64,000 bases of DNA. It comes from Halanaerobium saccharolyticum. Lineage in GTDB: Bacteria > Bacillota > Halanaerobiia > Halanaerobiales > Halanaerobiaceae. The notes under the pieces are model-generated. The model worked only from the letters and a program-made list of their open reading frames with translations, searched no databases and was not told where the DNA came from. Location of the stretch: positions 58,152 through 122,151 of the forward strand of contig NZ_QLME01000001.1 of the NCBI RefSeq assembly GCF_003259895.1. Reading direction: 5' to 3'. Of this stretch, positions 2,924-62,616 are shown one piece after another. The translations under genes and the position numbers were made by a program. Numbering within the stretch: the stretch's first letter is position 1; each line of letters begins with the position of its first letter.

Positions 2924-3850
2924 CTAAGCCTGCTTAAACGGCAAAAAACTTTTTGGATTATCAATAAATATGTTATCTATCTGTTCCTGGGTAAAACCCT
3001 CTCTAAGCAGCCGGGGAATAAATTTATGCTGGATATATTCCCAGCCCGGTCCGCCTCCATAGGATTTTAGATAAGACTTTCTTCCCATATCATTAGAAAT
3101 AAACAGCTGTTTTATAAAACCATCATCTACTAATTTTTTCAAGGTATCTATTCGATTTTGATCTGCATAATATTTAATTTTAGAAGGACCATCATACATA
3201 ATATTAGCGCCTCTTTCCAGAGCCTGCCTGTGGTATCCATAATCTAAATTTCTATCCATGTGAATTAAAAGTACTCGCGAAAGATCAACACCTTCTCTTT
3301 CAAAAATGTCTAACTGTTCCAGTCCCATAGTTCCCATTTCAGTATGAGTCTTTATTGGAGCTCCTGTTTCTAAATGAGCATTTGCAACAGCTACAAAAGT
3401 TTTTTCTTCTGACTTAGTTATTCGATTGTAATCACTACCTGCTTTCAAAATAGCTGCTTTCAGGTCTGTTCCATCTATACCTACTGTTACTTCTCGAATC
3501 AGAAGTGCTGTTAGTTCATCAACAGAATAATTATGGACCCAGTCTTCGAAAAAAAGACCCCGATTAAAACCTGAAGTAGCAAGGATCTTAATGTTTGTTC
3601 TATTTGCTATTTTAGCCATCTGATCAATGTTTCTTCCATAATCTATTGTGGTTCCATCCACAAAAGTATTAACTTCTGTTTTCTCTAATCTCTTCAGCTC
3701 TTCCACTGCCTTACGGGGACTGTCAAGAACATAATCCGGATCTTTTTTAACTCTTAAATCAGGTGGGTCAGTAAGTAAATGCTCATGCATTCTGACAAAG
3801 CCCAGCTCATCAACATCAATTTCTCCAGTTAAAGTATTAATTTTTGACAT
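2924..3850 (-). CDS. Phosphotriesterase-family metal hydrolase
   Basis: A 308-residue amidohydrolase-superfamily TIM barrel of the phosphotriesterase/PHP (lactonase-like) group. Seen: the first metal ligands H22 and H24 in RMHEHLL, the lysine region (AAILKAGSDYN), THTEMGT and HMDRN for the histidine ligands, and SNDMG for the final aspartate. Members are mostly lactonases or phosphate-ester hydrolases. The gene sits between regulator and IIA, overlapping the regulator by 14 bases, so it is in the same operon. By analogy with UlaG, which opens ascorbate-6-phosphate, it may hydrolyse the phosphorylated PTS product; this is inference. It is unlikely to be a pesticide-degrading enzyme. Confidence 0.88.
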   Translation of the reverse strand: MSKINTLTGEIDVDELGFVRMHEHLLTDPPDLRVKKDPDYVLDSPRKAVEELKRLEKTEVNTFVDGTTIDYGRNIDQMAKIANRTNIKILATSGFNRGLFFEDWVHNYSVDELTALLIREVTVGIDGTDLKAAILKAGSDYNRITKSEEKTFVAVANAHLETGAPIKTHTEMGTMGLEQLDIFEREGVDLSRVLLIHMDRNLDYGYHRQALERGANIMYDGPSKIKYYADQNRIDTLKKLVDDGFIKQLFISNDMGRKSYLKSYGGGPGWEYIQHKFIPRLLREGFTQEQIDNIFIDNPKSFLPFKQA

Positions 3851-6068: not shown

Positions 6069-6124
6069 TGTAAGCTCCCCTAATAAAAAAATAATAATTT
6101 TATCTATCAGCGTTTTCTAGTTAT

Positions 6125-6153
6125 ATTGTACCCCTATAATTATCCAGGTTCAA
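6125..6153 (-). promoter_or_regulatory. Sigma-A promoter of the PTS operon
   Basis: On the minus strand: -35 TTGAAC (6153-6148), 17-base spacer, -10 TACAAT (6130-6125), about 55 bases before the regulator start codon. It drives the regulator-phosphotriesterase-PTS-creatininase operon. Confidence 0.75.
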
Positions 6154-6160
6154 CAGCTGA

Positions 6161-6194
6161 TTACCACAAATCTTTTCCGAAAAAGTAGTGGCAA
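6161..6194. promoter_or_regulatory. Candidate binding site of the PRD activator
   Basis: An interrupted palindrome whose outer half-sites are TTACCAC and GTGGCAA, with an inner CTTTTCCGAAAAAG core. It lies 8 bases upstream of the -35 box, where an activator would bind. The half-sites resemble the TTGnCAC-type sites reported for MtlR-class regulators, so autoregulation by the adjacent gene is the likely reading. Confidence 0.55.
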
Positions 6195-6207
6195 AAATGT
6201 AGTAATT

Positions 6208-6240
6208 AAAAAAATCTCACCTGTAATACTCTGGTGAGAG
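6208..6240 (-). terminator. Orphan minus-strand terminator-like hairpin
   Basis: Minus strand: CTCACC, 11-base loop, GGTGAG, then A and seven T. No minus-strand gene lies upstream, because the next gene (6416) is on the plus strand. It may insulate the PTS promoter from antisense read-through or be a dispersed element, since its arm TCTGGTGAGAG also occurs in the repeats at 12175 and 17191. The rest of 6241-6400 is AT-rich with no gene visible. Confidence 0.55.
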
Positions 6241-6415
6241 GAAATAAATATTTTTTTTATAATTATTTAAGATCTACTAATATGCAATATATAAAGCATG
6301 TTTTTCAAAGCACTAATTATTATTTTACCGTATAATTAATAATATAATGAATTTTCTAAAAAGGAGGTGCGGATTGTAAATTTTATATTACTAAAATATT
6401 AGGAGGTAAATTAAG

Positions 6416-7684
6416 ATGCATGCAATGAGTAAGATTTTTATGATTTTAATATTAGTAGTTTTATTAATCTTAAGCAGCAGTCCATTTCTTTTTGCAAAAA
6501 ACAACACATCTAATTTGAAACCTGGAGTAACTGTAGAACCAGATCCCACTTCTCCGACAGGTTATTACGCAACATTTATTTATGAGGATGAAACTGCAAC
6601 AGCAACCAACGTTGAAATATATAGTGATTGTTTTTATCATTTCAAAATTAAAGACGGGTTTTTAATCCCCTATAAACCTGAAGATTATCAAGCAGGAATG
6701 TTTCCAGGTGGAGGAAGTGGTGATACCAAGTATTACATTAATATGAAAAAGTTAGACAACAATCTATGGAAGGCTAAAATACCCCTTTCAAGTGGTGCGT
6801 TTGTTTACAACTTTCGCATTACCAATCCAGATGGTAGTACAACTGAAAGATTGGATGATCCCAATAACCCAACCTTAACCAATACTGCTACAGGTATTTC
6901 AAGTTTATCCAGCATGGTCTATATTCCATACAATTCTGATCTGATGGGGAGTGGACCATGGCTAGATCGCTCAGTAGAAATTCCAAGAAAAGATAATAAA
7001 ATTGGAACAGTAGAAACTGTATCTTATAAGGGTGCTGCTGGTCAAACTCGCGGACTTGCTATTTATTTGCCCTATGGATACAATCCAGATCGAAAAAAAC
7101 CCTATAAAGTACTTTACTTATCTCATGGTATGTCTGGAGATAAACACGGTAATGAACTCCGCTGGATGAACGAAGGTGCAGTGGCAAATATTACAGATAA
7201 TTTGATTGCAGACGGAGTCATTGAGCCTTTTATTGTAGTAAGTATGAATAATCAGGACTTTGATTGGGAATATGAGAAAATAGAAGAAGATCAGTTTGAT
7301 TATATTATACCTTATATTAATGATAATTATAATGTTTACTCTACACCTGAAGGACGAGCTTATGCTGGTTTATCGATGGGGGGAATAACCACTAATCGGA
7401 TGTATTTTTACCATGCTGATGAATTTTCTTATTTTGGTATCTGGAGTTATGCAAGTGAGGGAGAAGAAATAGAGAATATAGATAACTATAAAGAATTGAA
7501 CTCTCCTTCGATAATGTTGGGAGCAGGTATTTGGGATTTTGGACTTTCTCCTGTAGCAAATTTAGCTTCAGAACTTACTAAAAAAGGAATCAATCACTCT
7601 ATTCTTGTGGTGCCTGGTGCACATGACTGGGAAACCTGGCAGTTATTATATGCTGCTTTTATAGAAAACCACTTGTGGAAATAA
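6416..7684 (+). CDS. Secreted CE1-like carbohydrate esterase
   Basis: A 422-residue secreted alpha/beta hydrolase of the putative-esterase family (feruloyl/acetyl-xylan esterase and enterochelin-esterase-like group). A signal peptide occupies about residues 1-28 (hydrophobic IFMILILVVLLILSSS, FAKN). Residues 30-170 look like an Ig-like/CBM48-type domain, followed by the catalytic domain with oxyanion YLSHGMSG, nucleophile elbow GLSMGG (S320) and catalytic His403 in PGAHDWETWQ. It presumably removes acyl decorations from plant or algal polysaccharide outside the cell. Start: ATG nine bases after AGGAGG; a second ATG three codons later is too far from it. Monocistronic, ending at a strong bidirectional terminator. 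Confidence 0.85.
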   Translation: MHAMSKIFMILILVVLLILSSSPFLFAKNNTSNLKPGVTVEPDPTSPTGYYATFIYEDETATATNVEIYSDCFYHFKIKDGFLIPYKPEDYQAGMFPGGGSGDTKYYINMKKLDNNLWKAKIPLSSGAFVYNFRITNPDGSTTERLDDPNNPTLTNTATGISSLSSMVYIPYNSDLMGSGPWLDRSVEIPRKDNKIGTVETVSYKGAAGQTRGLAIYLPYGYNPDRKKPYKVLYLSHGMSGDKHGNELRWMNEGAVANITDNLIADGVIEPFIVVSMNNQDFDWEYEKIEEDQFDYIIPYINDNYNVYSTPEGRAYAGLSMGGITTNRMYFYHADEFSYFGIWSYASEGEEIENIDNYKELNSPSIMLGAGIWDFGLSPVANLASELTKKGINHSILVVPGAHDWETWQLLYAAFIENHLWK

Positions 7685-39926: not shown

Positions 39927-40010
39927 TTTAGTCCCCTCTCTAAAGTTGTTGATAACCTGATTATTAAACAAAAGTTTAAATATCCCCCCTTAATTATTAT
40001 TTTCACTACT

Positions 40011-40020
40011 GGTAATTACC
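40011..40020. promoter_or_regulatory. Operator GGTAATTACC, site 1
   Basis: A perfect 10-base palindrome in the leader of the GH1 operon, about 50 bases downstream of the second site and near a weaker TTGACT (40048-40043) promoter-like element on the minus strand. Same sequence as the sites at 40062 and 41333. Confidence 0.8.
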
Positions 40021-40061
40021 TATATTTGTTATATAGGTTATAAGTCAATAATTATACAATT

Positions 40062-40109
40062 GGTAATTACCTGTATTTATATTATATAACCTCTTTTTAA
40101 TTATTGCAA
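40062..40109 (-). promoter_or_regulatory. Promoter and operator of the GH1 operon
   Basis: Minus strand: -35 TTGCAA (40109-40104), 17-base spacer, -10 TATAAT (40086-40081), then the operator GGTAATTACC (40071-40062) about 10 bases downstream of the -10 box. The segment TATAAT..AAATACAGGTAATTACC is nearly identical to the regulator's own promoter at 41333-41378, so both are repressed by the same protein. Confidence 0.85.
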
Positions 40110-40118
40110 ATATTTTTT

Positions 40119-40150
40119 CAAAAAAAAGACCTGCATAAAAATATGCAGGT
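40119..40150 (-). terminator. Terminator of the GntR/LacI regulator gene
   Basis: Minus strand: ACCTGCATA, 4-base loop, TATGCAGGT, C and eight T. It lies 38 bases after the regulator stop and directly before the -35 box of the GH1 operon. Confidence 0.9.
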
Positions 40151-40187
40151 TAAAGTTTATATGATATTATATTTTAGAATTTTTATT

Positions 40188-41291
40188 TTATAGTATTTCT
40201 TTTACTGATTCTCTTTCTATTAGTTCTACCGGTAAAGTAACATTTAAGGAATAATTTCGTCCTTCAAGTATTGATTCAAAAAGCAGCTTTCCAGCAACTC
40301 TTCCCATTTCCTCTTTCATAACTTTTAAAGTAGTTAATTTAGGTTTTAACTGTCTGGCCAAATCTACATCATCAAAACCAATGATTGATAGATCTTCAGG
40401 AATCTTAATATTTTCTTCTTTAGCCTGACTTATAGCGCCCATTGCCAGGAGATCAGAAGCTGCAAAAATGGCTGTTATTTCCTTATTACTCTTCACAACT
40501 TTTTTCATAGCCTGATAGCCAGCATCAAAATCCCAACCTTCTGCAGTAATTACCAGTTGATTGCTTTCTAATCCCGCTTTCTGCATTGCATTTAAATAAC
40601 CTTCTTTTCTCTGCTGTGAGGGAAAACTATTTGCATCTCCAGCAATAAAGGCTATATTTTGATGTCCTTTTTCGATAAGATATTCTACAGCTTTTGTTGC
40701 CCCTTTTTTATCCTCAATATTTACAGTATCTACATTGTCCACTGTTATCGAGGGACTTACTAAAAGCAGGGGAATGTTAATATCCAGTAGATGATTTAAG
40801 AATTCTTTGTTATGCAGCTCCCCACCCCAGATAATACCTTCTACTTTTGCTAAAAGCTGATCAATTTCTTCCTGGTCAATACTTTTTTCGTCTATTGTTT
40901 TATAGATACAGTGGTAACCATTATCTGCTGCAGATTGCTCGATCCCCATTAATAAGGCCGGATAAAAAATGTCATTTCCATTAGAGAAATTATCCTTATT
41001 ATCACTGTGTACACAGCGAACAAACAAGACATTACCAGTTAACTGTTCATTATTACTAAGCGAGCCTTTATTATTTTTAACAAAGGTTCCTTTTCCCGCT
41101 TCTTTATTAAGATAACCTTCTGTTACAAGTACATCAATTGCTTTTCTAATTGTAGTCCTGCTGACAGAATATAAATCGCACAATTCCCTTTCAGATGGCA
41201 GTTTATCGCCTACTTTTAATTCTTTTGAATTTATCTTATCCATTATATCTTCTATTACTTCTTTATAATAAACTCCAGATTTATTTGCCAT
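40188..41291 (-). CDS. GntR/LacI-type repressor of the GH1 operon
   Basis: A 367-residue regulator with a GntR winged helix (about 12-75: KLPSERELCDLYSVSRTTIR, KAIDVLVTEGYLNKEAGKGT) and a LacI-like sensor domain (about 90-365: IPLLLVSPS, NIAFIAGDAN, IFAASDLLAMGAI, IIGFDDVDLARQLKP). It sits directly upstream of the GH1 transport operon. Three copies of the palindrome GGTAATTACC, one at its own promoter and two at the operon promoter, are the likely targets, giving autorepression and sugar-induced expression. GAGGAG precedes the ATG. Paralogue of the regulator at 34298. Confidence 0.92.
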   Translation of the reverse strand: MANKSGVYYKEVIEDIMDKINSKELKVGDKLPSERELCDLYSVSRTTIRKAIDVLVTEGYLNKEAGKGTFVKNNKGSLSNNEQLTGNVLFVRCVHSDNKDNFSNGNDIFYPALLMGIEQSAADNGYHCIYKTIDEKSIDQEEIDQLLAKVEGIIWGGELHNKEFLNHLLDINIPLLLVSPSITVDNVDTVNIEDKKGATKAVEYLIEKGHQNIAFIAGDANSFPSQQRKEGYLNAMQKAGLESNQLVITAEGWDFDAGYQAMKKVVKSNKEITAIFAASDLLAMGAISQAKEENIKIPEDLSIIGFDDVDLARQLKPKLTTLKVMKEEMGRVAGKLLFESILEGRNYSLNVTLPVELIERESVKEIL

Positions 41292-41332
41292 TGGTATTCT
41301 CCTCTATCTAACAAATTAATGGTTTCCAGATT

Positions 41333-41378
41333 GGTAATTACCTGTATTTATTATATCTTTATTTTTAAGCCAATGCAA
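41333..41378 (-). promoter_or_regulatory. Autoregulated promoter of the 40188 regulator
   Basis: Minus strand: -35 TTGCAT (41378-41373), 17-base spacer, -10 TATAAT (41355-41350), then operator GGTAATTACC (41342-41333) covering the start region. Same layout as the GH1-operon promoter. Confidence 0.85.
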
Positions 41379-41401
41379 ATAATATTTATCAAACTCCCTG
41401 A

Positions 41402-43705
41402 TTAATATCGCTGTCTTACCTGCTGTTTCAATTTTAAATTATTAAAAGTAAATGCATTCTGTCTTAGTTGATTAACTACATCAGTATATATGTCTGCTCC
41501 CTCAGGATCAATAATTGTTATGACAAGAACAAATCTTTGTTTTGCAGTATTATTTTCATTCCTGTTCAGAAAATCTACTCTTAATTTCCAGTCCTGATTT
41601 TTTATACCCCTGGGAATTTTTCTATAATATGATTTTATAGGCGACCATTTAAAACCATTTTGAATTCTCTCTTTTTCATATTTGCTGTCCCAATTTTTTT
41701 CTAATGGTACTTCACCGGAATAATCAAATTTCAACTCACCATTTTCATTAATTTCTTTATAAGTTCCTAAAGAAGCATTGATATTAACCCTACAATATTC
41801 CTGACCAAAATTCGGATCTAAGGGAGGATCATACGCTAAAGTCATATATATTTCACCATACCACTTATTATTTCTCAATAATGACTCGGGATATGGAAAA
41901 TCATAAAGTTCAAGATGCTCTCCCTTTTTGATAAGCTCATTAAAAATTAAGGTAACCTTATCATTTCTGCAGCTTAAAATATCAGCTGGTAATATATTAG
42001 GGTGTCCGAAACCATAGTATTTATTTTCTTCATCTTTATTAATCTTAACCGAATTGGAAAGTCTAGCAGAATGTATTAATAAAGCTTTTGAAGTCAATAA
42101 ATCCTGGTTGTCCAAACTATTATTTATAGCAGCATAAGTATTAGTAACTAAAGGGGTAGAAAAACTGGTACCAATATTTTCAAAGATAGAACAATCTTCG
42201 CCAAGAGAAAAAACACCTAAATTATTACAGCTCCATTCACTATCTAAGTTACCTCCATAATCTACTACCTCAGGCTTAATTACATAGTTTGCTCCAGGTC
42301 CACGTCGACTAAATGGAGAAGGTTCATGTTTTTTTACAATTGAATTATCGGAATCTTTGTGAGCAATAGAACCAACTGTGAGAGATCTTATTGAATCAGC
42401 TGGAGAAGTAATTCTATCATTTTCACCCAGATCTTTAACAGGGGGCCAACTTCTAAATGGAGGAGTATTATAATTGCCGCTTGATAAAATAAATTTAACC
42501 TCATATTTATCCGATAATTCATCTAAAAAAACAGCTAAATCACTAATTTCATCATTCTTGCACATAATACTGGAACCTAATGATAAATTCCAGATCTTAA
42601 CTTCATTTGAATACTTAGGGACAACTTCATTCATAATCTCTATAAATTGGTCTTCTGTTAAATGATCTACTTTACCATATTGAGGATCATCATTTGGAAT
42701 AACAACAACATCCAAAAATTTAAACTTTTGATTACTTCTATTTTTAAAATTATTAAAAATATCTCCATACTGAATTAACCCCGCTACAAAAGTACCATGT
42801 TGATTATTTTGATATTCTTCCGGCACAAAACTTTCTCTTGCATATATCCAGGGCTCTAATAAAGGATGGTCTGCCTTTATCCCACTATCAACAACACCGA
42901 TAACGGGGTATTCACTTTTACCAGGCTTCTTATATTCTGAAGGATCAATACTTTTGACTGAATAACTTTTGATTGGCGCAGTATTGATAGTTCTAATAGG
43001 AGAAATAGTTTTAAGCGCACTAAATCCAGCTATATTATCCAGACTATTTTTGTCGCAATTATTTACTTTGAAGGTTTTAAATAAATCACTGAAACTTATT
43101 TCTTCCAAATTATCAATAAGGTTATATTTTTCTAAAAGCCTATAAAAATTTTGGTGTGAATTTTTATTATCCTGTTGATTATCAAAATTAAATAATTTTA
43201 ATTTTACTGGTCTTCCTGAGTTTATTTGTTTATACATTTCTTCTTTAGAAAACTCAGAAAAAATGTCTTCAGAAGTATAAGGTAATATATTATCAATAAC
43301 CGTTAAGTTAGACTTAAATTTTTCAGTACTATTATTCTTCATTTCACTAATAACCGTATCAATTCCAGTCTTAGTTAACTTAATAAAAATTTCATCAAAT
43401 GTATTACTGCCAATAATAGGACAAGTATCAGGGTTAAATATTTTATTGGGTTTATGAGATTTAGCAATTGCTTTATTCTTTATTTTTATTTTACCGACAC
43501 AGGGTACTTCAGGAAATTCTTTGAAATTTTTTGAATAATATTTATTAAGACTAACAAATTTATCCGACAGGCTTTTTCTAAGCTCTGGTGTCACTTCCCC
43601 AAAAAACTTAGTCTGACCTCCCCCGGTATTTTTTGTTTTATCCTGTTTTCTAGAAAAAACTACTTTAATCGGCAATCTTTCATTCTTATCACTCACTATT
43701 CTCAC
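41402..43705 (-). CDS. ietS: Subtilisin-like (S8) protease, IetS-like
   Basis: A 767-residue intracellular S8 serine protease. No signal peptide. The catalytic triad is complete: D273 (VIGVVDSGI), H303 (HGTFVAG) and S514 (GTSFSTP). A 260-residue N-terminal region and a roughly 190-residue beta-rich C-terminal region flank the catalytic domain. It overlaps the upstream AAA+ ATPase gene by 17 bases, so the two are made together. This ATPase-subtilase pair matches the IetAS system (known as a plasmid stability locus and listed among anti-phage systems). Probably the effector that cleaves proteins once the ATPase senses infection; that mechanism is inferred. Confidence 0.75.
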   Translation of the reverse strand: MRIVSDKNERLPIKVVFSRKQDKTKNTGGGQTKFFGEVTPELRKSLSDKFVSLNKYYSKNFKEFPEVPCVGKIKIKNKAIAKSHKPNKIFNPDTCPIIGSNTFDEIFIKLTKTGIDTVISEMKNNSTEKFKSNLTVIDNILPYTSEDIFSEFSKEEMYKQINSGRPVKLKLFNFDNQQDNKNSHQNFYRLLEKYNLIDNLEEISFSDLFKTFKVNNCDKNSLDNIAGFSALKTISPIRTINTAPIKSYSVKSIDPSEYKKPGKSEYPVIGVVDSGIKADHPLLEPWIYARESFVPEEYQNNQHGTFVAGLIQYGDIFNNFKNRSNQKFKFLDVVVIPNDDPQYGKVDHLTEDQFIEIMNEVVPKYSNEVKIWNLSLGSSIMCKNDEISDLAVFLDELSDKYEVKFILSSGNYNTPPFRSWPPVKDLGENDRITSPADSIRSLTVGSIAHKDSDNSIVKKHEPSPFSRRGPGANYVIKPEVVDYGGNLDSEWSCNNLGVFSLGEDCSIFENIGTSFSTPLVTNTYAAINNSLDNQDLLTSKALLIHSARLSNSVKINKDEENKYYGFGHPNILPADILSCRNDKVTLIFNELIKKGEHLELYDFPYPESLLRNNKWYGEIYMTLAYDPPLDPNFGQEYCRVNINASLGTYKEINENGELKFDYSGEVPLEKNWDSKYEKERIQNGFKWSPIKSYYRKIPRGIKNQDWKLRVDFLNRNENNTAKQRFVLVITIIDPEGADIYTDVVNQLRQNAFTFNNLKLKQQVRQRY

Positions 43706-44831
43706 TACCTTCCCGGATTAACTGACCAATATATGCCTTTGAATATCCAAGCAATTTAGCAATTTTAGAATAACTAAAAATTTTATCATCAATATTCCTT
43801 AAATAAATAGATATTTTTTTTGCCCTCTCTCTATCAGAAAGATCAGTCTCTGAATCAAAAAAATCTATATAAGAAAAAAATCTTTTAACTAAAATTTTAA
43901 CATTAAATTTATTATCCCTAATAATACTATCCCTTAAAGAACTATTACAGATATCCTCAATCTGGGCTCCAGTTAAATCTTTAAAAATATGAGCTAAGAG
44001 CTCATAATCCATTTTATTTAACTTGTCTGTTCCTAAAAAAAGTCTTATTAGTTCTTTTCTAGATTCAAAAGAAGGTTTTTTGATATTTAAAGTGTAGTCA
44101 AATCGTCTCCAGACAGCAGGATCTAGTAATTGTTCATGATTAGTGGCAGCAATTAAGATGTGACCTTCATTAAGAAAATCAATATTCTGCAGCAGACTGT
44201 TAACAACCCTTTTTAATTCACCCAGCTCATTTTTATCATCTCGCAGTTTGGCCAGTGCATCAAATTCATCTAAAAATAATATACAGGGAGTTGTCTCTAC
44301 ATATTCAAATAAATATCTAATATTTTTAGCTGTATTACCTAAATAAGAAGAAATAAGACTATCCAGTCGGGCAACTAATAATGGAAGCCCTGTTTTTAAT
44401 GAAAGATAGTGAGCTAATTTTGTTTTTCCACATCCAGGTGGGCCATAAAATAATAATGTATTTGGAAACTCTAAACCAGAAGCAGCAAGTAAATCACTTT
44501 TTTCATAAGCTAAAATGAATTCTTCTATTTTTTCTTTTTCTAATTTATTTAAAACTATGTCCCCAGAAATTTCTTCTGGCATTATTACATCAGCCATAGA
44601 TAATCTTGACTCCTGATCAACCGGAACATTCATAATTGAATCTAAATTTTGCGCCGTCATATGTTTTTTAGTATTGTTAGAAGAAAGAGCTTTTTTTAAT
44701 TTATCAGCAACTTTATTTTCTCCTTCTTTTTCAAGTTTATTACTGAGCAATTTCGTATAGTTAACAACCTTATCTTGATCTGACTTCAAAGCGCCTTCAA
44801 TAATTTTCAAAATTTCTAAAGTGTGTTCCAA
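43689..44831 (-). CDS. ietA: AAA+ ATPase, IetA-like
   Basis: A 380-residue cytoplasmic ATPase. Walker A is GPPGCGKT at 130-137, Walker B ILFLDEFD at 184-191, sensor 1 ILIAATNHEQLL near 227, and an arginine finger region DPAVWRRFD near 240, as in FtsH/Vps4-type AAA proteins. An N-terminal helical domain (1-115) and a C-terminal helix-turn-helix-like segment (KIAKLLGYSKAYIGQLIREG) are extra. It starts with TTG after GGAGGTG. It forms an operon with the subtilase and probably controls its activity. The end HTH and the palindrome over the start region suggest autoregulation. Confidence 0.78.
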   Translation of the reverse strand: MEHTLEILKIIEGALKSDQDKVVNYTKLLSNKLEKEGENKVADKLKKALSSNNTKKHMTAQNLDSIMNVPVDQESRLSMADVIMPEEISGDIVLNKLEKEKIEEFILAYEKSDLLAASGLEFPNTLLFYGPPGCGKTKLAHYLSLKTGLPLLVARLDSLISSYLGNTAKNIRYLFEYVETTPCILFLDEFDALAKLRDDKNELGELKRVVNSLLQNIDFLNEGHILIAATNHEQLLDPAVWRRFDYTLNIKKPSFESRKELIRLFLGTDKLNKMDYELLAHIFKDLTGAQIEDICNSSLRDSIIRDNKFNVKILVKRFFSYIDFFDSETDLSDRERAKKISIYLRNIDDKIFSYSKIAKLLGYSKAYIGQLIREGSENSE

Positions 44832-44844
44832 ATTTTATCACCTC

Positions 44845-44891
44845 CAAATTGTATACAATTTGATTATATCATGTACGATTAATGATGTAAA
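44845..44891 (-). promoter_or_regulatory. Promoter and palindromic operator of the ietAS-like operon
   Basis: Minus strand: -35 TTTACA (44891-44886), 17-base spacer, -10 TATAAT (44868-44863), then a perfect 18-base palindrome CAAATTGTATACAATTTG (44862-44845) at the start site, just before the ribosome-binding site. A related half-site CGTATACAAA occurs about 60 bases upstream (near 44915). This looks like an operator for tight repression. Confidence 0.75.
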
Positions 44892-44952
44892 CTTAATTTT
44901 ATAGCTTTATTTGTATACGATTTTACTCTTTTGGAATACTAATTTCCAAAAC

Positions 44953-44994
44953 AAAAAAATACTCCTGGCAGCTAATAAATAACTCCAGGAGTAT
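44953..44994 (-). terminator. Terminator of the KGGVGR ATPase gene
   Basis: Minus strand: ATACTCCTGG (44994-44985), loop, CCAGGAGTAT (44968-44959), then seven T. It separates this unit from the ietAS-like operon. Confidence 0.88.
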
Positions 44995-45088
44995 TATCTC
45001 ACTCAATTTTATTTTACTTAATCATTTTAGGACCGTAATCTAATTTCCTTCAATCCTTATTTTCAAAAAAATATTTATTAAGTTTCAT

Positions 45089-47434
45089 CTAATATCTTTC
45101 AAAAACACAGCCTAAACTATCTCTACTAATAAGTGACTTTTTGCTCTTTAAGTTATTCTCAATTTCTAATTTTATTGTTTCACTTAAAATTTCTGCTACT
45201 GAGATAGGGTTCATCATATTTTTTGATTCTAGTAAATCATAAAAATAATCTATAACCTTTTTAGAATAAATTTCAGGATTAATTCTAATTCCCCAGAATA
45301 AATTTAACAGATAGTCTGTTCTGATTTCTACACTGTTGGCAAAATAATTGTTCAGATTGAACTTTTCACTAACTTGATTCTTATTTTCTTCATTTTCTTT
45401 TCTTTTAAATTCAGCCAGTTTTTCTTCAAAAGTAGAAACTTTATTGGTCCGATTAATAGCATATAAGTAATCTTCCAGATTACTGGAAACCGAAAGTAAG
45501 TAATCTAATATCAGCCTTTTTAGATCATCTTTTTTCCATTCAAGCTGATAAACTCCAAGTAAATCTGTAAATAATTCCAGATTGTTTTTATAATATCTAT
45601 CAGATACAATTATTTTCAGATTAAGCTTCGAAAAGTGTTCTCTAATAAATTCAACTGCCGAATTTAATATATTAATTTTTTCAGCGGTTAAATAATTATT
45701 TCCGAAAATATTTAGATTAATAACCAAATTTATTTCTCTTCTTACATTATTGATCCTGTTTCCAGTTTCATTTAAATAAAAAATATCATCTGAATCTTCT
45801 GCAACCAGAGTCAAATCTTTAATTTTTTGAATCCGATCATCGAAATCAAGCTCTATAAACTCACTTTTTATTCTAGAATAATCCTCCTGAATAAAGTTAT
45901 CAGCTGTAAAAACCATTTTTGAATCATCTGATTTCAATACCTGTAAAGTTACATAATAAAAATAACTTAATACATCAAATAAATCTTCAAATTGATTTTC
46001 AGCAAGAAAGTTATTATCCTCAATAAAAACGAGTTTGTTTTCTACTAAAGCTAATAAAGAGCTCCCCTTTTCCTCTCGCATGGGGGTAATTTTATTGAAA
46101 TTATCTATTAATCTCGAAAATCGTTTTTCTATTATTTGAGAGTCAGCAGCTATAAAATTGTATTTATTACTCATTACCTTTTTTTCGGCCTCAGTTATAT
46201 AAAATTCCTTACTTATATTATCTAACAGCTGCTTTAACACTTCTTTTTTATCAATATAATCTGTAATATATGTTTTATTAATCTCTAATTGATCTTTTTC
46301 TAAAATAAAATCTGCAATCTCCTGATACTCACTTAAGAATTTATCATTAGGAAAATCCTTAATTACAGCTAATCTTGGATTATACACGATCGAGATGAAT
46401 TCCTGCTCAAGCCTTAATTCTTCAAATAATTCTTCTGCATAATCAAGACCCTCATCAGCTTCAACTCTAGAAAAAACAACTGTAAATTTCTTCAACTGCA
46501 TATTTTTCATTAAATCAACTATTGTTCGAGTTCCAGTTATGTTTTCCCTATTTGGATAAGTAAAAAAGAATACTTCATCCGCAATATCTAAAATAGAAAA
46601 AGCTCCCCAATCATTGATACCAGTTCGAGAATCAATAAGTACAATATCTATCTCTAATCTTTTTTGCAATTTTTCTAATAGAACAGTTAAATAGTCTCTC
46701 CGGGAAAGAAATTTAGGTTTTAACTGAGTTAATTTATAAATATACTCTGCAGACATTATTCCAGCAGGGATAGTATACAAATTACCGGCAAGTGTTTCAT
46801 CTACCTGGATATTACTAACAATATCATCAATATTTATATCTTTCTCTTCGCCGGCAAATTCCTGTTCATAAAGATAATCAACAATCCCTTTGTCCAGTTC
46901 AATTTTATTAGAGAAAATATCATATAAACTTGGAGCTTCAATGTCTAAGTCGAGCATTAATACATTTTTGCCTTTTTTAGCTAAAAGATAAGCGGTCTGA
47001 ACTAAAGCAAGAGTTCTCCCAACTCCACCTTTATACGAATAAAAAGATATAAGGTGAGGCAAATCATTTTTTACTTTTTTATCTTTAATTTTGGCATCAG
47101 CTTCTAATGATTTTATCATGCTCTCCCAGTCAGAAAATCCATCTTTTTTAGTTGAGGGTTTTTTGATTCCAGAAAAATCAGCATCTTCAACACTATAAAA
47201 GGTAGTAAATCCTTTATGGTAGAAATCATCAAGTTTCTGAAAAGAGCTCTCTATAAATTTTAAAGATTCTGATTCATCATCTTCAAATTTATTACTAACA
47301 ATAGTTAAATCTATTCTGCCTAGAGGAGTTACATTAATATCTATCCATTCAGCATCTTTTTTTATAAAGTGATCTTTCAGTGCTTTTTTGAATTTCTTTA
47401 AACTGCTCAACCTTTTATTTAATTTACTATCCAT
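45089..47434 (-). CDS. KGGVGR ATPase (ParA/MinD superfamily) with long extensions
   Basis: A 781-residue protein. Residues 128-370 form a SIMIBI/ParA-type ATPase with the deviant Walker A KGGVGRT (135-141), LMLDLDIEAPSLYD (switch/A' region) and IVLIDSRTGINDWG. The 120-residue N-terminal part (many Lys/Asp) and the roughly 400-residue C-terminal part have no motif I recognise. KGGVGR ATPases occur in bacterial conflict systems as multidomain NTPases. Start at 47434 (ATG) rather than the in-frame TTG upstream, because GAGGG sits directly against that TTG. Independently transcribed and terminated, next to the IetAS-like pair; a role in defence is inferred from neighbourhood. Confidence 0.7.
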   Translation of the reverse strand: MDSKLNKRLSSLKKFKKALKDHFIKKDAEWIDINVTPLGRIDLTIVSNKFEDDESESLKFIESSFQKLDDFYHKGFTTFYSVEDADFSGIKKPSTKKDGFSDWESMIKSLEADAKIKDKKVKNDLPHLISFYSYKGGVGRTLALVQTAYLLAKKGKNVLMLDLDIEAPSLYDIFSNKIELDKGIVDYLYEQEFAGEEKDINIDDIVSNIQVDETLAGNLYTIPAGIMSAEYIYKLTQLKPKFLSRRDYLTVLLEKLQKRLEIDIVLIDSRTGINDWGAFSILDIADEVFFFTYPNRENITGTRTIVDLMKNMQLKKFTVVFSRVEADEGLDYAEELFEELRLEQEFISIVYNPRLAVIKDFPNDKFLSEYQEIADFILEKDQLEINKTYITDYIDKKEVLKQLLDNISKEFYITEAEKKVMSNKYNFIAADSQIIEKRFSRLIDNFNKITPMREEKGSSLLALVENKLVFIEDNNFLAENQFEDLFDVLSYFYYVTLQVLKSDDSKMVFTADNFIQEDYSRIKSEFIELDFDDRIQKIKDLTLVAEDSDDIFYLNETGNRINNVRREINLVINLNIFGNNYLTAEKINILNSAVEFIREHFSKLNLKIIVSDRYYKNNLELFTDLLGVYQLEWKKDDLKRLILDYLLSVSSNLEDYLYAINRTNKVSTFEEKLAEFKRKENEENKNQVSEKFNLNNYFANSVEIRTDYLLNLFWGIRINPEIYSKKVIDYFYDLLESKNMMNPISVAEILSETIKLEIENNLKSKKSLISRDSLGCVFERY

Positions 47435-47566
47435 AATAATCAACCCTCAATCCTTTGCTTTTGCTCATTTAGCCAGTTATTATTGTTACATATTATTATT
47501 TTGAACTAAACTAAAAAATTAAACATCCCTGGATTTGTTCTTGTATATTTACTGGCGTGAAGCTTA

Positions 47567-47620
47567 GTTTGTTACATCTGGTTTGGTTTGGCTGCAATCC
47601 AGATGACAAAAGGCATAACG
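47567..47620. other. Palindromic spacer after the GNAT gene
   Basis: TTTGT..CATCTGG pairs with CCAGATG.ACAAA (47575-47581 with 47599-47605 plus flanks), bordered by GGCATAACG. On the minus strand it reads CGTTATGCC then the hairpin. It resembles recombination-type spacers in shape but does not fit the attC consensus; see the findings. Confidence 0.4.
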
Positions 47621-47656
47621 TCAATCTCATCTTATATGACAACTAGCAGTAATCTA

Positions 47657-48085
47657 TTACTTTTTCCAGATCATTAAATATTCTTCTTCTTTTAGTTTTT
47701 TATCTACCAATTCTTCTTTTATTTCAAACCCATTTTTTGAATAAAAATTATAAGCTCTAATATTTTTTTTAAAAACTTTTAATTCTATATAATCTCTATC
47801 CTTTTTTACATGATTTAATAACTCTTTACCAAAACCTCTGCTTTGAAATCTGGCATCGACAAAAATTGCAGCTAAATAGTTATCCAGCATTGAAATAAAT
47901 CCAGATAACTCATTATTATTTTCTATAACATATGTTTCAGAATTTGGAATATATTTTTCCTTCATATCTGCTTTTGCTGATTTCCAATATTTTTTATCAA
48001 CAAAATTATGAGCTTCTAATGATACTTCATACCATAAATCCACTAACTTATTAATATCATCTTTACTGCTTCTCCTGATTCTCAA
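47657..48085 (-). CDS. GNAT-family N-acetyltransferase
   Basis: A 142-residue cytoplasmic acetyltransferase. Seen: the acetyl-CoA-binding motif A (AAIFVDARFQSRGFGKELLNH, near residues 70-90), ELKVFKKNIRAYNFYSKNGF (motif B) and the C-terminal EYLMIWKK. It transfers acetyl from acetyl-CoA to an amine, possibly an antibiotic, an amino acid or a protein end. It starts with TTG after GGAAG. It heads a row of three resistance-type genes with palindromic spacers and no obvious promoters of their own, so HGT origin is likely. Confidence 0.88.
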   Translation of the reverse strand: MRIRRSSKDDINKLVDLWYEVSLEAHNFVDKKYWKSAKADMKEKYIPNSETYVIENNNELSGFISMLDNYLAAIFVDARFQSRGFGKELLNHVKKDRDYIELKVFKKNIRAYNFYSKNGFEIKEELVDKKLKEEEYLMIWKK

Positions 48086-48110
48086 TTTGATCTTCCTTTT
48101 TTATTAAATT

Positions 48111-48166
48111 GCAAGTTTTATAACAGAAGGTATGACACTAATCCCCTGTCATATTATAAAGTTTGC
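48111..48166. other. Palindromic spacer between GNAT and MccF-like genes
   Basis: A stem-loop with bulges: GCAAGTTTTATAA (48111-48123) pairs with TTATAAAGTTTGC (48154-48166) and TATGACA with TGTCATA, leaving CAGAAGG unpaired on one side. It occupies nearly the whole spacer. Confidence 0.45.
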
Positions 48167-48179
48167 TGACTTTTAAAGC

Positions 48180-49223
48180 TTATAAACCTGATGTTCCTGC
48201 TTCATTAATTCGAAATTTATTATTATCACAATCTATTTCTGCCTCTACTCCATATGGTAATATAAACATTGGTGCTGTATGTCCAAAATTCATATTATAC
48301 ATTATTGGAAGATCATCTCTCTTTGCTTCATCTCTTATTACTTTTAAATATTCTTCTTTATATTCTTCATAATATTTCTCAGCTTGCGGCTTGGCTATGA
48401 TCAAAGCATTTAATCTTTCAAATATACCAATTGCATCTAAAGATCTCAAATATCTTCTAATTTCTATAGGTGTAGGCTTTTCTTCACTAGTCTCCAGAAA
48501 TAGTATTTTATTTTCCCATGCTTCTAAATCAGGCCATAAAATTGTTCCTCTCAACCAGTCTAAAACCTCTATACAACCACCTATTAATTCCCCCTTAACT
48601 ACACCCTCACCTTGAAGTAATTCATAGCCTCTTTTTTCTTTATTCAATTCTCTTTTAATTTTACTATTTTCTCTATTCTCCCATGGTAACATTTGAGAAG
48701 TCCAGTAGTTACTACTTTCAATTTCTCCTATAGTTTTATTATTAAATAAAACTTTTTTAATCCATTTGACTGTATAATCATGCATTTCAACATTCTCAGC
48801 AAATTCTGCTAGAACACTGGGGCCATAATAACTTGTCAACCCAGCCTTATAGCACATAAAATGATTTACTGTTGTATCTGAATAACCCATAAATATTTTA
48901 GGATTATTTTTTATAACGTCAAAATCTATGTAGGGAAGTAATCTAAGGGTATCATCACCACCTATGTTAGAAAATATAGCTTTTATTTCTTTATTTTTAA
49001 ATGCATTTATCATATCCTCAGCTCTTGCTTTGGGGTTATTGCTTAAATATTTACTCCCTTTTAAACTATTAGGCATTTCTACGACTTTTAGTCCAAATAA
49101 ATTCTCTAGTCTTTTTTTCCCTATTTCATATCTACATCTGAATTCTTTATCTCCTGCCAGCCCTGATGATAAACTTATCGTTGCTATTTTATCTCCTTTT
49201 TTTAAACTTTCTGGTTTTATCAT
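48180..49223 (-). CDS. S66 peptidase, MccF/LD-carboxypeptidase-like
   Basis: A 347-residue cytoplasmic serine peptidase of family S66, closest in features to the MccF microcin-C immunity type. Seen: catalytic serine in FMGYSDTT near residue 112, the glutamate region GELIGGCIEVLDWL and FLETSEEKPT, and the catalytic histidine in FGHTAPMF near 310. MccF-like enzymes cleave acyl-sulfamoyl-adenylate antibiotics, and LD-carboxypeptidases trim murein peptides. The SGLAGD start and missing signal peptide favour MccF. GAGGAGCC precedes the ATG. Middle gene of the resistance-type row. Confidence 0.85.
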   Translation of the reverse strand: MIKPESLKKGDKIATISLSSGLAGDKEFRCRYEIGKKRLENLFGLKVVEMPNSLKGSKYLSNNPKARAEDMINAFKNKEIKAIFSNIGGDDTLRLLPYIDFDVIKNNPKIFMGYSDTTVNHFMCYKAGLTSYYGPSVLAEFAENVEMHDYTVKWIKKVLFNNKTIGEIESSNYWTSQMLPWENRENSKIKRELNKEKRGYELLQGEGVVKGELIGGCIEVLDWLRGTILWPDLEAWENKILFLETSEEKPTPIEIRRYLRSLDAIGIFERLNALIIAKPQAEKYYEEYKEEYLKVIRDEAKRDDLPIMYNMNFGHTAPMFILPYGVEAEIDCDNNKFRINEAGTSGL

Positions 49224-49268
49224 AATTAGGCTCCTCTTTAATTATTTGTTAAATCAAATTTTATAAAA

Positions 49269-49394
49269 CGTCCCGAACATTTGCGACATGGCTGTCCTTA
49301 TTCTTTAGTTTGGCACATCGCTTGCTATTTATCAGCATTTTCAGCTTAAACAACTGCAAGAGATGTGACAAAAGCCATGTCTCAACGGGCGACG
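49269..49394. repeat. Large imperfect palindrome (126 bp) upstream of the MccF-like gene
   Basis: CGTCCCG (49269-49275) pairs with CGGGCGACG (49386-49394), and GACATGGC (49285-49292) with GCCATGTC (49374-49381), with further pairing inside (GTTTGGCACATC against GATGTGAC). Two smaller hairpins follow at 49394-49440 (GGCTATTTTACAGCC and TGCACTATTTATGTGCA). G+C is higher than in the neighbouring DNA. No ORF. It fills the spacer between the Vat-like and MccF-like genes. Confidence 0.65.
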
Positions 49395-49532
49395 GCTATT
49401 TTACAGCCCAACATCATACCCAATCAGCGCCAATGCACTATTTATGTGCAGTACCATACTTTAGTTAAAAACTTCATAAATGACATTATTCACTCTAACT
49501 ATGAAATAAGATTAATGACTATACAAATTAAA

Positions 49533-50169
49533 TTACTTAATAGATTTAATTTTTTTCAGATCAGAACTACAAAGTATTTCTAAATTTGAAAATATTTTTT
49601 TTGCTGGCCAATCCCACCATTTTAAGTTCAAAAGATAATCAATCAACTCATCATCAAATCTTTTCCTTATAATTCTGCATGGATTTCCACCAACTATATG
49701 ATATGGCAAAACATCCTTTGTTACAACAGAATTTGCTGCAATAATTGCTCCATCACCTATTTGAACTCCAGGCATAATAGTTACATTTTGTCCAATCCAA
49801 ACATCGTTTCCAACAACTGTATCACCTTTAAATGGCAAGTCATCAAGTGAAGGAGTGGATTTTTCCCACCCATTACCCATAATATTAAATGGATAAGTTG
49901 TAACAGAATTCATTCGATGATTTGCACCATTCATAATAAACTCTATACCTTTTGCAATTGCACAAAATTTACCAATAATCAACTTATCACCCAAGAAATC
50001 ATAATGATGAGTAACATGCTCTTCGAATTTTTCTGGTTCATTTTTGTCATCGTAATAGGTATAATCTCCAACAATAATATCTTTGCGAGTTATTACATTT
50101 TTAATATAACAAATATTTTTTTAAAGCATCATTCGGATATATTTTATCTGGGTTTGGTCCATATTCCAT
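49533..50169 (-). pseudogene. Vat/CatB-type acetyltransferase with a frameshift
   Basis: Corrected, this is a 211-residue left-handed beta-helix (hexapeptide repeat) xenobiotic acetyltransferase of the Vat/CatB family, which acetylates streptogramin or chloramphenicol. N-terminal part from ATG 50169: MEYGPNPDKIYPNDALK. After one extra A in an A-run near 50127-50133 (7 instead of 6) the frame continues NVITRKDIIVGDYTYYDD, then NGANHRMNSVTTYPFN, VVGNDVWIGQNVTIMPGVQI and YHIVGGNPCRIIRKRF. Catalytic His lies in NGANHRM. AGGAAGGTG precedes the ATG. The single homopolymer error may be real decay or a sequencing fault; if false the gene is intact. Confidence 0.8.
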
Positions 50170-51559: not shown

Positions 51560-51607
51560 TTGCTATAAAGTTCTTCATATTATATAATATAAATGTGGGT
51601 AAAACCC
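51560..51607 (+). promoter_or_regulatory. Promoter and operator of the AbrB/RelE pair
   Basis: -35 TTGCTA (51560-51565), 17-base spacer, -10 TATAAT (51583-51588). A palindrome TGGGTAAAACCCA (51596-51608) covers the start region and is a likely operator for the AbrB-type antitoxin. Confidence 0.75.
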
Positions 51608-51630
51608 ATAAAATACAGGGTGGTGATAAA

Positions 51631-51885
51631 ATGAGTGATAAATTAGTTGTCAAAGTGGACTCAAGAGGCAGAATAACAATCCCCAAAGAAGCTAGAAAAG
51701 CTGCAGATATTGAATCAGGAGATGTACTTTTTATGAATCTCAGCCCCGGAAGAGTAGAATTAACCAGGGCAATTAAAGATCCACTTGTAGAATTAACAGC
51801 ATATGCAGAAAGTGAATATGAAAAAGGGAATACACAAAATCTGAGAGATTTTGCTGAAGAAGAGGGGATTAAATTAGATGAATAA
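51631..51885 (+). CDS. AbrB/MazE-type antitoxin
   Basis: An 84-residue DNA-binding antitoxin of the swapped-hairpin AbrB fold (residues 1-50: KLVVKVDSRGRITIPKEARK, ESGDVLFM). The acidic C-terminus (ESEYEKGNTQNLRDFAEEEG) would bind the toxin. I start at ATG 51631 after AGGGTGGTG rather than 12 codons upstream. It overlaps the toxin gene by 8 bases, as in many toxin-antitoxin operons, and probably represses its own promoter. Confidence 0.88.
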   Translation: MSDKLVVKVDSRGRITIPKEARKAADIESGDVLFMNLSPGRVELTRAIKDPLVELTAYAESEYEKGNTQNLRDFAEEEGIKLDE

Positions 51886-52192
51886 TTATTCTGTTGAGAT
51901 TATTCATTTAATAAAAGATGACTTAAAAAGACTTAAACATCAAAAAGAAAATGCTATTAAACAAATTATTTCTTTAGAAAATGATCCAATTAAAAAAAGT
52001 AAATCTTTATCTGGAAATCTCAAAGGATTAAGAAGTTTTAAGTTCACTTTATCTAATGGACAATATAGAGCAATTTTTAAAATTTTAGAAGATAATAAAG
52101 TATGTTTGTTGATTATTGTCGGCAGCAGGCAAAATATTTATCTGGAGGCAAAACGAAGAGTTAAAGCTCTTAAGAAAAACGGATTATTATAA
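51878..52192 (+). CDS. RelE/ParE-family toxin
   Basis: A 104-residue basic protein of the RelE/ParE fold: HLIKDDLKRLKHQKENAIKQI, then KSLSGNLKGLRSFKFTLSNG and QYRAIFKILEDNKVCLLIIV, the order typical of RelE mRNA interferases (GLRxFR, YRAIF). It is translationally coupled to the antitoxin by the overlap ATGA-type junction. Toxins of this family cut mRNA at the ribosome or block gyrase; which one applies cannot be told here. Confidence 0.88.
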   Translation: MNNYSVEIIHLIKDDLKRLKHQKENAIKQIISLENDPIKKSKSLSGNLKGLRSFKFTLSNGQYRAIFKILEDNKVCLLIIVGSRQNIYLEAKRRVKALKKNGLL

Positions 52193-60944: not shown

Positions 60945-61493
60945 TCAAATTTTATAATAAGTATATATTTCACTCTTTAAATAATTAGACAGATAACAGC
61001 TTGAATCTTCTGAAAATAGAAATTCTAAACAATCTTTAAGCTGACTAAATTCTATAATTCCATTTTCATAAGCAGAAATGATTATTCCAAGAGTGCCAGT
61101 AACTTTGATATCATAGTTTTTACAGATATCTCTAACTGGCTTATCATTACTTACTGCCAAAAGATCACCTTCACCAGCAATGGCAATAACAATTCTATCA
61201 TATTCAGATAATCTTTTAGCTGTATTATCATCTGAATCTTCAAGCTCAATAAAAATATTATATCCCAATTCACTCTCTATTGTGCCTTCAATAAATTTTA
61301 AGCTTCCTAAATCATCATAAATATTTTCATCTTCTAAAACAGGTGTTGGAATTTTTACTTTTTCAAATAACTGATTTAAAATAGAAATATAATCAAAGCT
61401 TAAGGCTGCTGTTATCTCCATAAAATCAGTTAGTATATTATTATCGACTACTATAGTTTCTCCTTTAAAGTTTTTAAGCCGTTCTGTATTCAT
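60945..61493 (-). CDS. PIN-domain toxin-like protein
   Basis: A 182-residue PIN-fold protein: first catalytic Asp17 in IVVDNNILTDFME, then LSEYDRIVIAIAGEGDLLAV (E/D ligands) and SNDKPVRDIC with the last acidic residue. PIN proteins are RNA-cutting toxins. It overlaps the upstream XRE/ImmA-IrrE gene by 20 bases, the arrangement of a toxin with its regulator-antitoxin. It is longer than most VapC proteins (about 130) because of a C-terminal helical extension. Confidence 0.75.
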   Translation of the reverse strand: MNTERLKNFKGETIVVDNNILTDFMEITAALSFDYISILNQLFEKVKIPTPVLEDENIYDDLGSLKFIEGTIESELGYNIFIELEDSDDNTAKRLSEYDRIVIAIAGEGDLLAVSNDKPVRDICKNYDIKVTGTLGIIISAYENGIIEFSQLKDCLEFLFSEDSSCYLSNYLKSEIYTYYKI

Positions 61494-62616
61494 AATTCTT
61501 CCATTTTTTAGCCAGTTTTCTCATTTCTAAAACTGAAATATTTAATACTTCTGCAGCCTTATTAATGGTTATTTCTTCTTTGATAACTAATTTTCTAACC
61601 AGAGCAAATAGCTTTTCATTTTTTCTTACATAATCTCTCGGTTCTGGTTCTTTTTTATCATATCCAGCTTCTTTGAGTTTTTTGAATAAAGCACCTAATA
61701 TTTTACCATTTATATAACCATATTTATTTAAAATCATGATCAGGGATTTTGCACTAACACCAAATTCTCTCTTCTTCTCAATAATCAGGTCCAGATCAAT
61801 ATATCCATCAAAATAATAATCATAATTTTTTAAAACTTTAGCAGGCACTAAAAATGCCATTGCAAAATGATCTGCTGCTTTTTCTCTTATATCTTTTATC
61901 CGAGTGTTAGCATATTTTAAGTCACTAATATCTTTACTGTATTGATCACGGTGAAGAATTAAGTGCCCTAATTCATGGACTGCAGAAAAGATTTTTCTTT
62001 CTTCGGGAATATCTCTGCTGTCATTGATAAAAATATAAGCACCTTTATCTTCAGAATAAGCAGAAACAGCATCTAAATTAGCATTTTTTATTTCCTGAGC
62101 AATTACATTAATATTATTTTCTTCAAAAAGAGTAAAGACATTGATATTTAATGCATCATCTACCCCCATATATCTTCTCTGTTTTTCTGCAATTTTATCT
62201 ATCGCGGTTTTTTCTTTTTCATTTAATTTATTACCTTCGATTTTTAGTTTATATTCTTCTGGTAAATAATCTTTTACTGGGTCATCACTCAGTTCTATAA
62301 TTTCATGATATAATTTAAATTTCTCTGCAATTTTATTTTTTAATTTGTCATCAAAATTATTTTCTGGATCATCGGCTCTAAACATAAATGATACTTTTTC
62401 TCTTTTTGATTTTTCGCTTAAAAAGAAATCAATCTCTTTATCAAAACATCTGGCTAATTTGTATAATTTGCCGCTGTCCATTACTCTTTCTCCATCTAAA
62501 TACTTTGCAAAAGTCTGTCTGGTAACCCCTATGATCTCTCCCATTTCAGTCTGGTTAAGGTTGAATTCATCCTGCAGCTCTTTTAAATTTTTAGCTATTA
62601 CTTCTGCCACTTTCAT
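61474..62616 (-). CDS. XRE regulator fused to ImmA/IrrE metallopeptidase
   Basis: A 380-residue protein with an N-terminal helix-turn-helix (about 5-65: LKELQDEFNLNQTEMGEIIG, VTRQTFAKYLDGERV) and a ImmA/IrrE-type zinc peptidase domain with HELGH at residues 214-218 (SAVHELGHLILHRD). In phage and toxin-antitoxin systems such proteins act as repressors that are inactivated by self-cleavage or that degrade a partner. It shares an operon with the PIN toxin. The promoter region holds repeats of TTAATGTTAA on both sides, suggesting autorepression. Confidence 0.85.
   Translation of the reverse strand: MKVAEVIAKNLKELQDEFNLNQTEMGEIIGVTRQTFAKYLDGERVMDSGKLYKLARCFDKEIDFFLSEKSKREKVSFMFRADDPENNFDDKLKNKIAEKFKLYHEIIELSDDPVKDYLPEEYKLKIEGNKLNEKEKTAIDKIAEKQRRYMGVDDALNINVFTLFEENNINVIAQEIKNANLDAVSAYSEDKGAYIFINDSRDIPEERKIFSAVHELGHLILHRDQYSKDISDLKYANTRIKDIREKAADHFAMAFLVPAKVLKNYDYYFDGYIDLDLIIEKKREFGVSAKSLIMILNKYGYINGKILGALFKKLKEAGYDKKEPEPRDYVRKNEKLFALVRKLVIKEEITINKAAEVLNISVLEMRKLAKKWKNYEYRTA

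Follow-up and report, generated by a model that had tools for sequence, protein, structure and literature searches.

A KGGVGR ATPase beside IetAS in Halanaerobium saccharolyticum, probably an orphaned and eroded subunit of a PDC-M28-type system

The locus

What is a large KGGVGR ATPase doing next to an IetAS pair in Halanaerobium saccharolyticum: is it a part of that pair, a defence gene in its own right, a partition protein, or what is left of another system? The gene, here called P0001, lies in a window of 64,000 nucleotides, the whole stretch of DNA that was analysed. A sequence-only reading had described a 781-residue KGGVGRT ATPase with its own terminator beside an IetAS-like pair, and translation, PADLOC matches and a terminator hairpin all bear this out. 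Positions 45089-47434 of the window, on the minus strand, translate into 781 residues and a stop; an in-frame TTG 9 bases upstream would give 784 residues, and the ATG at 47434 is preceded by GAGGG, a ribosome-site-like sequence. The frame is not a chance one: it stays open for 781 codons, three NTPase motifs in it are intact, and its matches have E-values between 1e-39 and 1e-49. The gene and its surroundings are as follows.

41402-43705: IetS, on the other side of P0001 from GNAT (PADLOC 1.5e-269)
43689-44831, minus strand: IetA, on the same side as IetS (PADLOC 1.7e-140)
44863..44891, minus strand: sigma-70-like promoter ahead of IetA, TTTACA-17-TATAAT with TG, a match to consensus only, at 11 of 12 positions
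44951..44998, minus strand: intrinsic terminator of the P0001 gene, a hairpin 3' of the gene
45089..47434, minus strand: P0001 gene, 781 aa, eroded PDC-M28B/M28C fusion, ATG at 47434, stop at 45091-45089
47444..47656: intergenic stretch, the place of the HEPN-like M28A gene in relatives, with none found here
47657-48085: GNAT acetyltransferase, the next gene on one side of P0001
48180-49223: S66 LD-carboxypeptidase, beyond GNAT on the same side

Despite their PADLOC matches, IetA and IetS both fall under the NCBIfam cut-offs. The terminator hairpin of P0001 (-23.4 kcal/mol, z -7.6) is followed by a U run; a simple terminator scan, which accepts loops of 3-8 bases and perfect stems only, did not list it. 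Upstream of P0001 come 222 bases of non-coding DNA and then the GNAT gene. The GC content of GNAT, P0001, IetAS and S66 is 0.25-0.30, whereas 50 ORFs of the window average 0.33; this suggests that the stretch consists of acquired accessory genes. Repeats bounding the island were sought, and only chance-like AT-rich pairs were seen apart from palindromes at 39992-41356; no Rfam family was found at window positions 40000-50000. The palindromes, of the TTGGTAATTACC type and in three copies (39992-40034, 40043-40085 and 41314-41356), surround a regulator gene (40188-41291) and are possibly that regulator's operators. Gene order around P0001 is not conserved within the genus: of 12 genomes, that of P0001 included, 3 were found to have S66 and 4 the regulator. 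Because the three stretches around S66 have no other neighbours in common with the P0001 locus, except for a single 26% match to a gene at a distant position in the window, no empty site could be drawn.

Two other gene pairs were noted further along the window. One, on the plus strand (51595-51885 and 51878-52192), is a type II toxin-antitoxin pair of the ordinary kind, in which the genes for a MazE/AbrB-like antitoxin and a ParE-like toxin overlap. The other, on the minus strand at 60945-62616, consists of an Xre + ImmA/IrrE-type protein (60945-61493, PADLOC RmrA) overlapping a DUF3368/PDC-S70 gene (61474-62616), a further toxin-antitoxin- or defence-like pair.

The N-terminal and ATPase domains

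The PADLOC candidate family PDC-M28 is made up of M28A (HEPN-like), M28B (a KGGVGR ATPase) and M28C (a P-loop ATPase). The first half of P0001 was resolved into these features.

47150..47434, minus strand: N-terminal alpha/beta domain, about residues 1-95, common to PDC-M28B relatives
46250..47062, minus strand: KGGVGR-type MinD/ParA ATPase domain, about residues 125-395, from the NF047398 match and a fold match
47012..47032, minus strand: deviant Walker A KGGVGRT, residues 135-141
46931..46951, minus strand: DLDIEAP motif, residues 162-168
46619..46633, minus strand: Walker-B-type motif DSRTG, residues 268-272

PDC-M28B matches residues 13-336 (E 1.9e-39), and the NCBIfam KGGVGR ATPase model NF047398 matches residues 126-308 (E 2.3e-49) with 168.3 bits, well over its curated cut-off of 90 bits. 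In its N-terminal domain and its ATPase P0001 is an M28B protein, having the KGGVGR MinD-like ATPase together with the M28B N-terminal domain. The Walker A motif has an Arg where the P-loop Lys is usual, a Lys to Arg change found family-wide, with KGGVGR conserved in all 30 rows of alignment A5. The N-terminus had been called lysine-rich, and as composition this stands (18% lysine, with 19% acidic residues, in residues 1-120); residues 1-95, mostly predicted as folded alpha/beta (block pLDDT mostly 70-91), would form a domain and not a basic tail.

An AlphaFold2 model built from 30 related sequences (mean pLDDT 73.8) shows this small alpha/beta domain followed by a confident MinD-like domain. 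The fold-search rows cover residues 123-386, which align to chains of MinD, FleN and Soj, the best match being a chain of the MinD-MinE complex (Z 23.5, 229 residues, 2.7 A), in agreement with the ParA/MinD-type ATPase first proposed. The same fold and the matches of Pfam ParA/CbiA models speak for a ParA/Soj-type partition protein, the kind of locus that the sequence-only reading had named as the finding that would count against it. That P0001 is such a protein is scarcely conceivable, as its neighbours are GNAT and IetA, with no ParB among them, and a parS scan of the window gave no cluster, its single hit, at 11305, having 3 mismatches and being at chance level (0.28 expected). The P-loop, with Arg for Lys, and the M28C-derived C module also speak against partition.

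MinD/ParA-like domains have been recruited to conflict systems elsewhere, and the expectation that this class of ATPase is tied to such systems is supported here. In the part of the eLife 2020 paper (PMC7159879) drawn on here, the vWA-MoxR ternary conflict systems carry MinD/ParA domains that are described as predicted to be inactive. Those systems have other architectures, whereas the only departure in the motifs of P0001 is the Lys to Arg change that the whole family shares.

The C-terminal half

The 400 residues that follow the ATPase had been set down as a domain of unknown kind, in a layout known from nowhere else. Comparison with relatives gives both an identity: the layout is that of a fused PDC-M28B and PDC-M28C in which the C module has decayed.

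45092..46249, minus strand: residues 396-781, C-terminal remnant of the M28C STAND/ORC-type AAA+ module
46124..46150, minus strand: place of the lost C-module Walker A, AADSQIIEK, residues 429-437 (GxKGTGKT in relatives)
45716..45733, minus strand: place of the lost C-module Walker B, LVINLN, about residues 568-573 (LYDDLD in relatives)

In alignment A6 the GxKGTGKT of relatives is replaced by ADSQIIEK in P0001 and LYDDLD by LVINLN, so that P0001 lacks the Walker A and Walker B of a STAND/ORC-Cdc6-type AAA+ module and, with them, the intact P-loop ATPase M28C of PDC-M28. It also stops about 100 residues short of its intact relatives, before a tail RYxxADIYxxGF that, from its similarity to Cdc6/ORC, we read as winged-helix-like. 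Two motifs, LxW...D and LFWGxR, are still kept. Profile-profile comparison by hhalign of the eroded C-termini (P0001, L038 and L040, the much shorter L039 being left out) with 26 intact ones gave a probability of 96.7% and E 3.4e-10 over about residues 604-777, against a probability of at most 0.3% and a best E of 0.2 in 30 column shuffles. A narrower profile of five M28C-type sequences set against the P0001 C-terminus alone reached a probability of 4.4 (E 0.0092). The hhalign support is confined to the later portion of the C module; residues of about 425-600, which make up the first half, are assigned by alignment alone, and the model of P0001 is likewise poor there (block pLDDT 28-68) and better beyond about 620. 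Judged from these sequence comparisons, the C-terminal half of P0001 is the remains of a fused M28C STAND/ORC-type AAA+ module.

What such a module looks like when whole can be seen in L041 (Paenibacillus), the C module of which gave a confident model (pLDDT 91.2) resembling archaeal AAA+ ATPases, Cdc6/ORC and CED-4/NLR proteins. The fold matches have Z of 13.6-15.2 (best 6 rows) with an rmsd of about 5 A, and the best Foldseek match is 1fnn (1.9e-5); the Z values are moderate, yet the list is of one kind of fold. Walker A of the C module is present in 26 of the 30 aligned fused proteins and missing in P0001, L038 (Clostridium tepidiprofundi), L039 and L040 (both Clostridiaceae), so that the erosion is common to P0001 and three Clostridiaceae relatives. 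Since these four form one clade (support 100/100) next to L041 with its intact module, the erosion most simply happened once, on a Bacillota branch.

Relatives and their neighbourhoods

Relatives of P0001 are thinly spread. Protein matches occur in 7 of 398 genomes of the phylum and in 2 of 59 of the class, the own genome counted in each, and in none of 11 other genomes of the genus, while PDC-M28B matches occur in at least 9 of the 398, again with the own genome counted. One of the nine (G284/L029) was dropped from the M28 count, having neither M28A nor M28C and a KGGVGKTT that is Mrp-like by eye. A scan of genome contigs with P0001 alone gave no relative, and alignment A2 was needed; the alignment-based scan gave at least 80 loci in the species genome collection and 23 in viral contigs. 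M28-type proteins were found in Bacillota, Cyanobacteriota, Pseudomonadota, Chloroflexota, Spirochaetota and viral contigs. Among phage records there was no match to P0001. On plasmids, the matches listed (24-37% identity) cover the ATPase domain and in some cases also parts of the regions beside it, and the C-terminus taken by itself matched no plasmid.

The sequence-only reading had proposed a survey of the neighbourhoods of homologues, and in that survey they adjoin the HEPN-like M28A and M28C, not IetAS. The recurrent order is a HEPN-like ORF, the KGGVGR ATPase and a second P-loop ATPase, the two ATPases being fused in L021, L023 and L024, and PADLOC assigned most of the scanned neighbour ORFs to PDC-M28A, M28B and M28C. 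Among the matches listed, 78 ORFs are M28-type ATPases (8 from the phylum sample, 56 from genome contigs and 14 from viral contigs), and an M28A ORF adjoins 72 of them by an HMM that was trained on 11 of the loci counted. Of the six listed without one (L131, L134, L136, L068, L121 and L091), by eye a HEPN-like ORF lies upstream of the first three, and L068 and L121 begin at a contig end. KGGVGR-type ORFs with neither M28A nor M28C make up a second class, with 23 of 79 in genome contigs and 9 of 23 in viral contigs among the matches listed; one of two scanned from this class, L082 (9911-11680), is a KGGVGR ATPase with TPR repeats.

Ten viral-contig loci (L122, L123, L124, L125, L129, L130, L132, L133, L135 and L137) have M28A, by HMM, together with M28B and M28C, which suggests that M28 systems are carried from place to place by viral or proviral DNA. 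The 118 neighbours of 22 M28 loci match 103 PADLOC models at 1e-20, including MkoA, PD-T4-6, HerA, JetC and type I MTase, against one model matched by 46 control ORFs. As this control was small and taken from the genus of the window, the count is of models rather than proteins, and two long neighbours were omitted, the enrichment of defence genes near M28 loci is supportive only. In L038, HerA-type (with the HerA-like part in two ORFs) and SIR2-like genes were seen by eye beside the ATPase, at 3736-6815.

The absent HEPN partner

In PDC-M28 a HEPN-like M28A is encoded directly upstream of the ATPase, and the three other members of the eroded clade (L038, L039 and L040) each have one, of 177-196 residues. 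For P0001 none was found. In the window, tblastn gave a best E of 0.017, inside an unrelated gene, and the HMM a best E of 1.6. Searched with the profile at E<=10, the own genome (an assembly of 63 contigs) gave nothing; with no positive-control genome behind this result, a very diverged M28A could have escaped. An in-frame peptide ending NNWLNEQKQRIEG just before the start of P0001 looks like an M28A tail by eye and suggested a degraded M28A upstream; at E 85 it was dismissed as evidence.

An active M28 system with its HEPN partner unlinked, or unrecognised elsewhere in the genome, would fit the rapid divergence of M28A (eight examples are 17-38% identical to a ninth, and Pfam HEPN misses several real ones) as well as the tail-like peptide. 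With M28A otherwise nearly always adjacent to the ATPase among the matches listed, and with the genome search empty, such an arrangement is distinctly unlikely.

The view that P0001 is an independent defence gene was right in kind, but an intact stand-alone system is unlikely because the usual HEPN partner is missing. In its strongest form this view would make P0001 a single-gene defence whose product detects phage or nucleotide state and relies on its own domains to act. Neither the open frame nor the MinD-like active site of P0001 is disrupted, and the gene adjoins IetAS with a terminator of its own in a low-GC stretch suggestive of acquired accessory genes. It has, however, no domain of known effector activity and no nucleotide-binding motifs in its C module, and nearly all of the relatives listed possess the HEPN partner, which leaves single-gene defence an improbable account.

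IetAS as a neighbour

A place for P0001 as a third, separately transcribed IetAS component was suggested by its position, on the same strand as IetA and 257 bp away, an arrangement seen only in this window. This did not hold up, and IetAS membership is very unlikely. In the relatives, linkage of the ATPase to the IetA and IetS genes is not conserved: no IetAS pair stands beside it in the 112 relatives' stretches among the matches listed; the nearest approach is at L057, where a 612-aa AAA protein resembles IetA (1.5e-26) with no IetS match. IetA-like proteins (E<=1e-40, none above the family's cut-off) occur in at least 41 of 398 phylum genomes and M28B in at least 9, both counts being lower bounds because only the best candidates were scored per genome. 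Both occur together in three (G000, G050 and G089) and adjacent in G000 alone, so that IetA ordinarily occurs without the M28B ATPase. Between P0001 and IetA, moreover, lie the terminator and the 11/12 promoter-like site that would give IetAS its own transcription signal. IetAS is the next-door neighbour of P0001 and independent of it. Two further IetA-like AAA genes are present in the own genome (G000:C24:30540-31469 and C1:165615-166361).

Proposed mechanism and meaning

The open PubMed Central literature yielded neither a paper on "KGGVGR" or "PDC-M28" nor any experiment with an M28 system. A close precedent is the dyad of a HEPN protein (MAE_18760) and a ParA/Soj-like ATPase, proposed as a toxin-antitoxin system with the ATPase as antitoxin and an RNase as toxin (Anantharaman et al. 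2013, PMC3710099, in the sections drawn on here). As in that dyad, a HEPN gene sits beside the ATPase in the intact M28 relatives, although not in the window; unlike it, as far as those sections describe it, M28A is HEPN-T/PF05168-like where Pfam recognises it, and not MAE_18760, and the M28 system adds an AAA+ module. The E, K, H and RY of M28A are invariant in 72 of 72 aligned ORFs, a set that fits the alternative-histidine pattern of some HEPN-T proteins, which the same sections treat as possible RNases.

P0001 is probably what remains of the ATPase subunit of a PDC-M28-type system, orphaned and eroded, and would today be either a relic or a toxin-free antitoxin. Its N-terminal domain and ATPase correspond to M28B and its C-terminus derives from M28C, but its locus has no M28A, and the M28C part is fused and lacks both Walker motifs as well as about 100 residues at its end. 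In intact relatives the HEPN-like M28A, encoded directly upstream of M28B joined to M28C, would be the candidate effector and the ATPase its putative regulator. By analogy with the 2013 proposal, as given in those sections, the MinD-like domain may dimerise on ATP and either hold the HEPN protein in check or license it, and the AAA+ module with its winged-helix-like end would sense the trigger. The clade of P0001 has dispensed with both nucleotide-binding motifs and the C-terminal end of this module and, since both motifs are lost, only the MinD-like switch would be able to bind nucleotide there. In the own genome the HEPN gene appears to be gone too. P0001 would then most likely be a relic, or else a toxin-free "antitoxin" able to neutralise a related HEPN toxin on incoming mobile DNA; the intact 781-codon frame and ATPase motifs argue against simple decay. 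As a minor possibility, the clade gave up its AAA+ sensor and the MinD-like switch alone governs an enlarged HEPN protein (177-196 aa), with P0001 serving as a toxin-free antitoxin that immunises the cell against M28-type HEPN toxins on phages or other mobile DNA.

For the family, the candidate defence system PDC-M28 gains a gene order, domain identities and candidate active residues, with a putative HEPN-T-like effector, a MinD-type switch and a STAND-type AAA+ module. The M28-type system is predicted to be a three-part anti-virus or toxin system, of which P0001 would be a regulator retaining a working-looking switch. A natural dissection is also provided, with one clade living without the AAA+ motor and one member of it without the effector as well, and M28 offers a way to test whether a MinD-like ATPase restrains HEPN proteins, an idea put forward in 2013 for a different HEPN family. 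Were the toxin-free antitoxin reading true, P0001 would be a natural counter to toxin-based defence.
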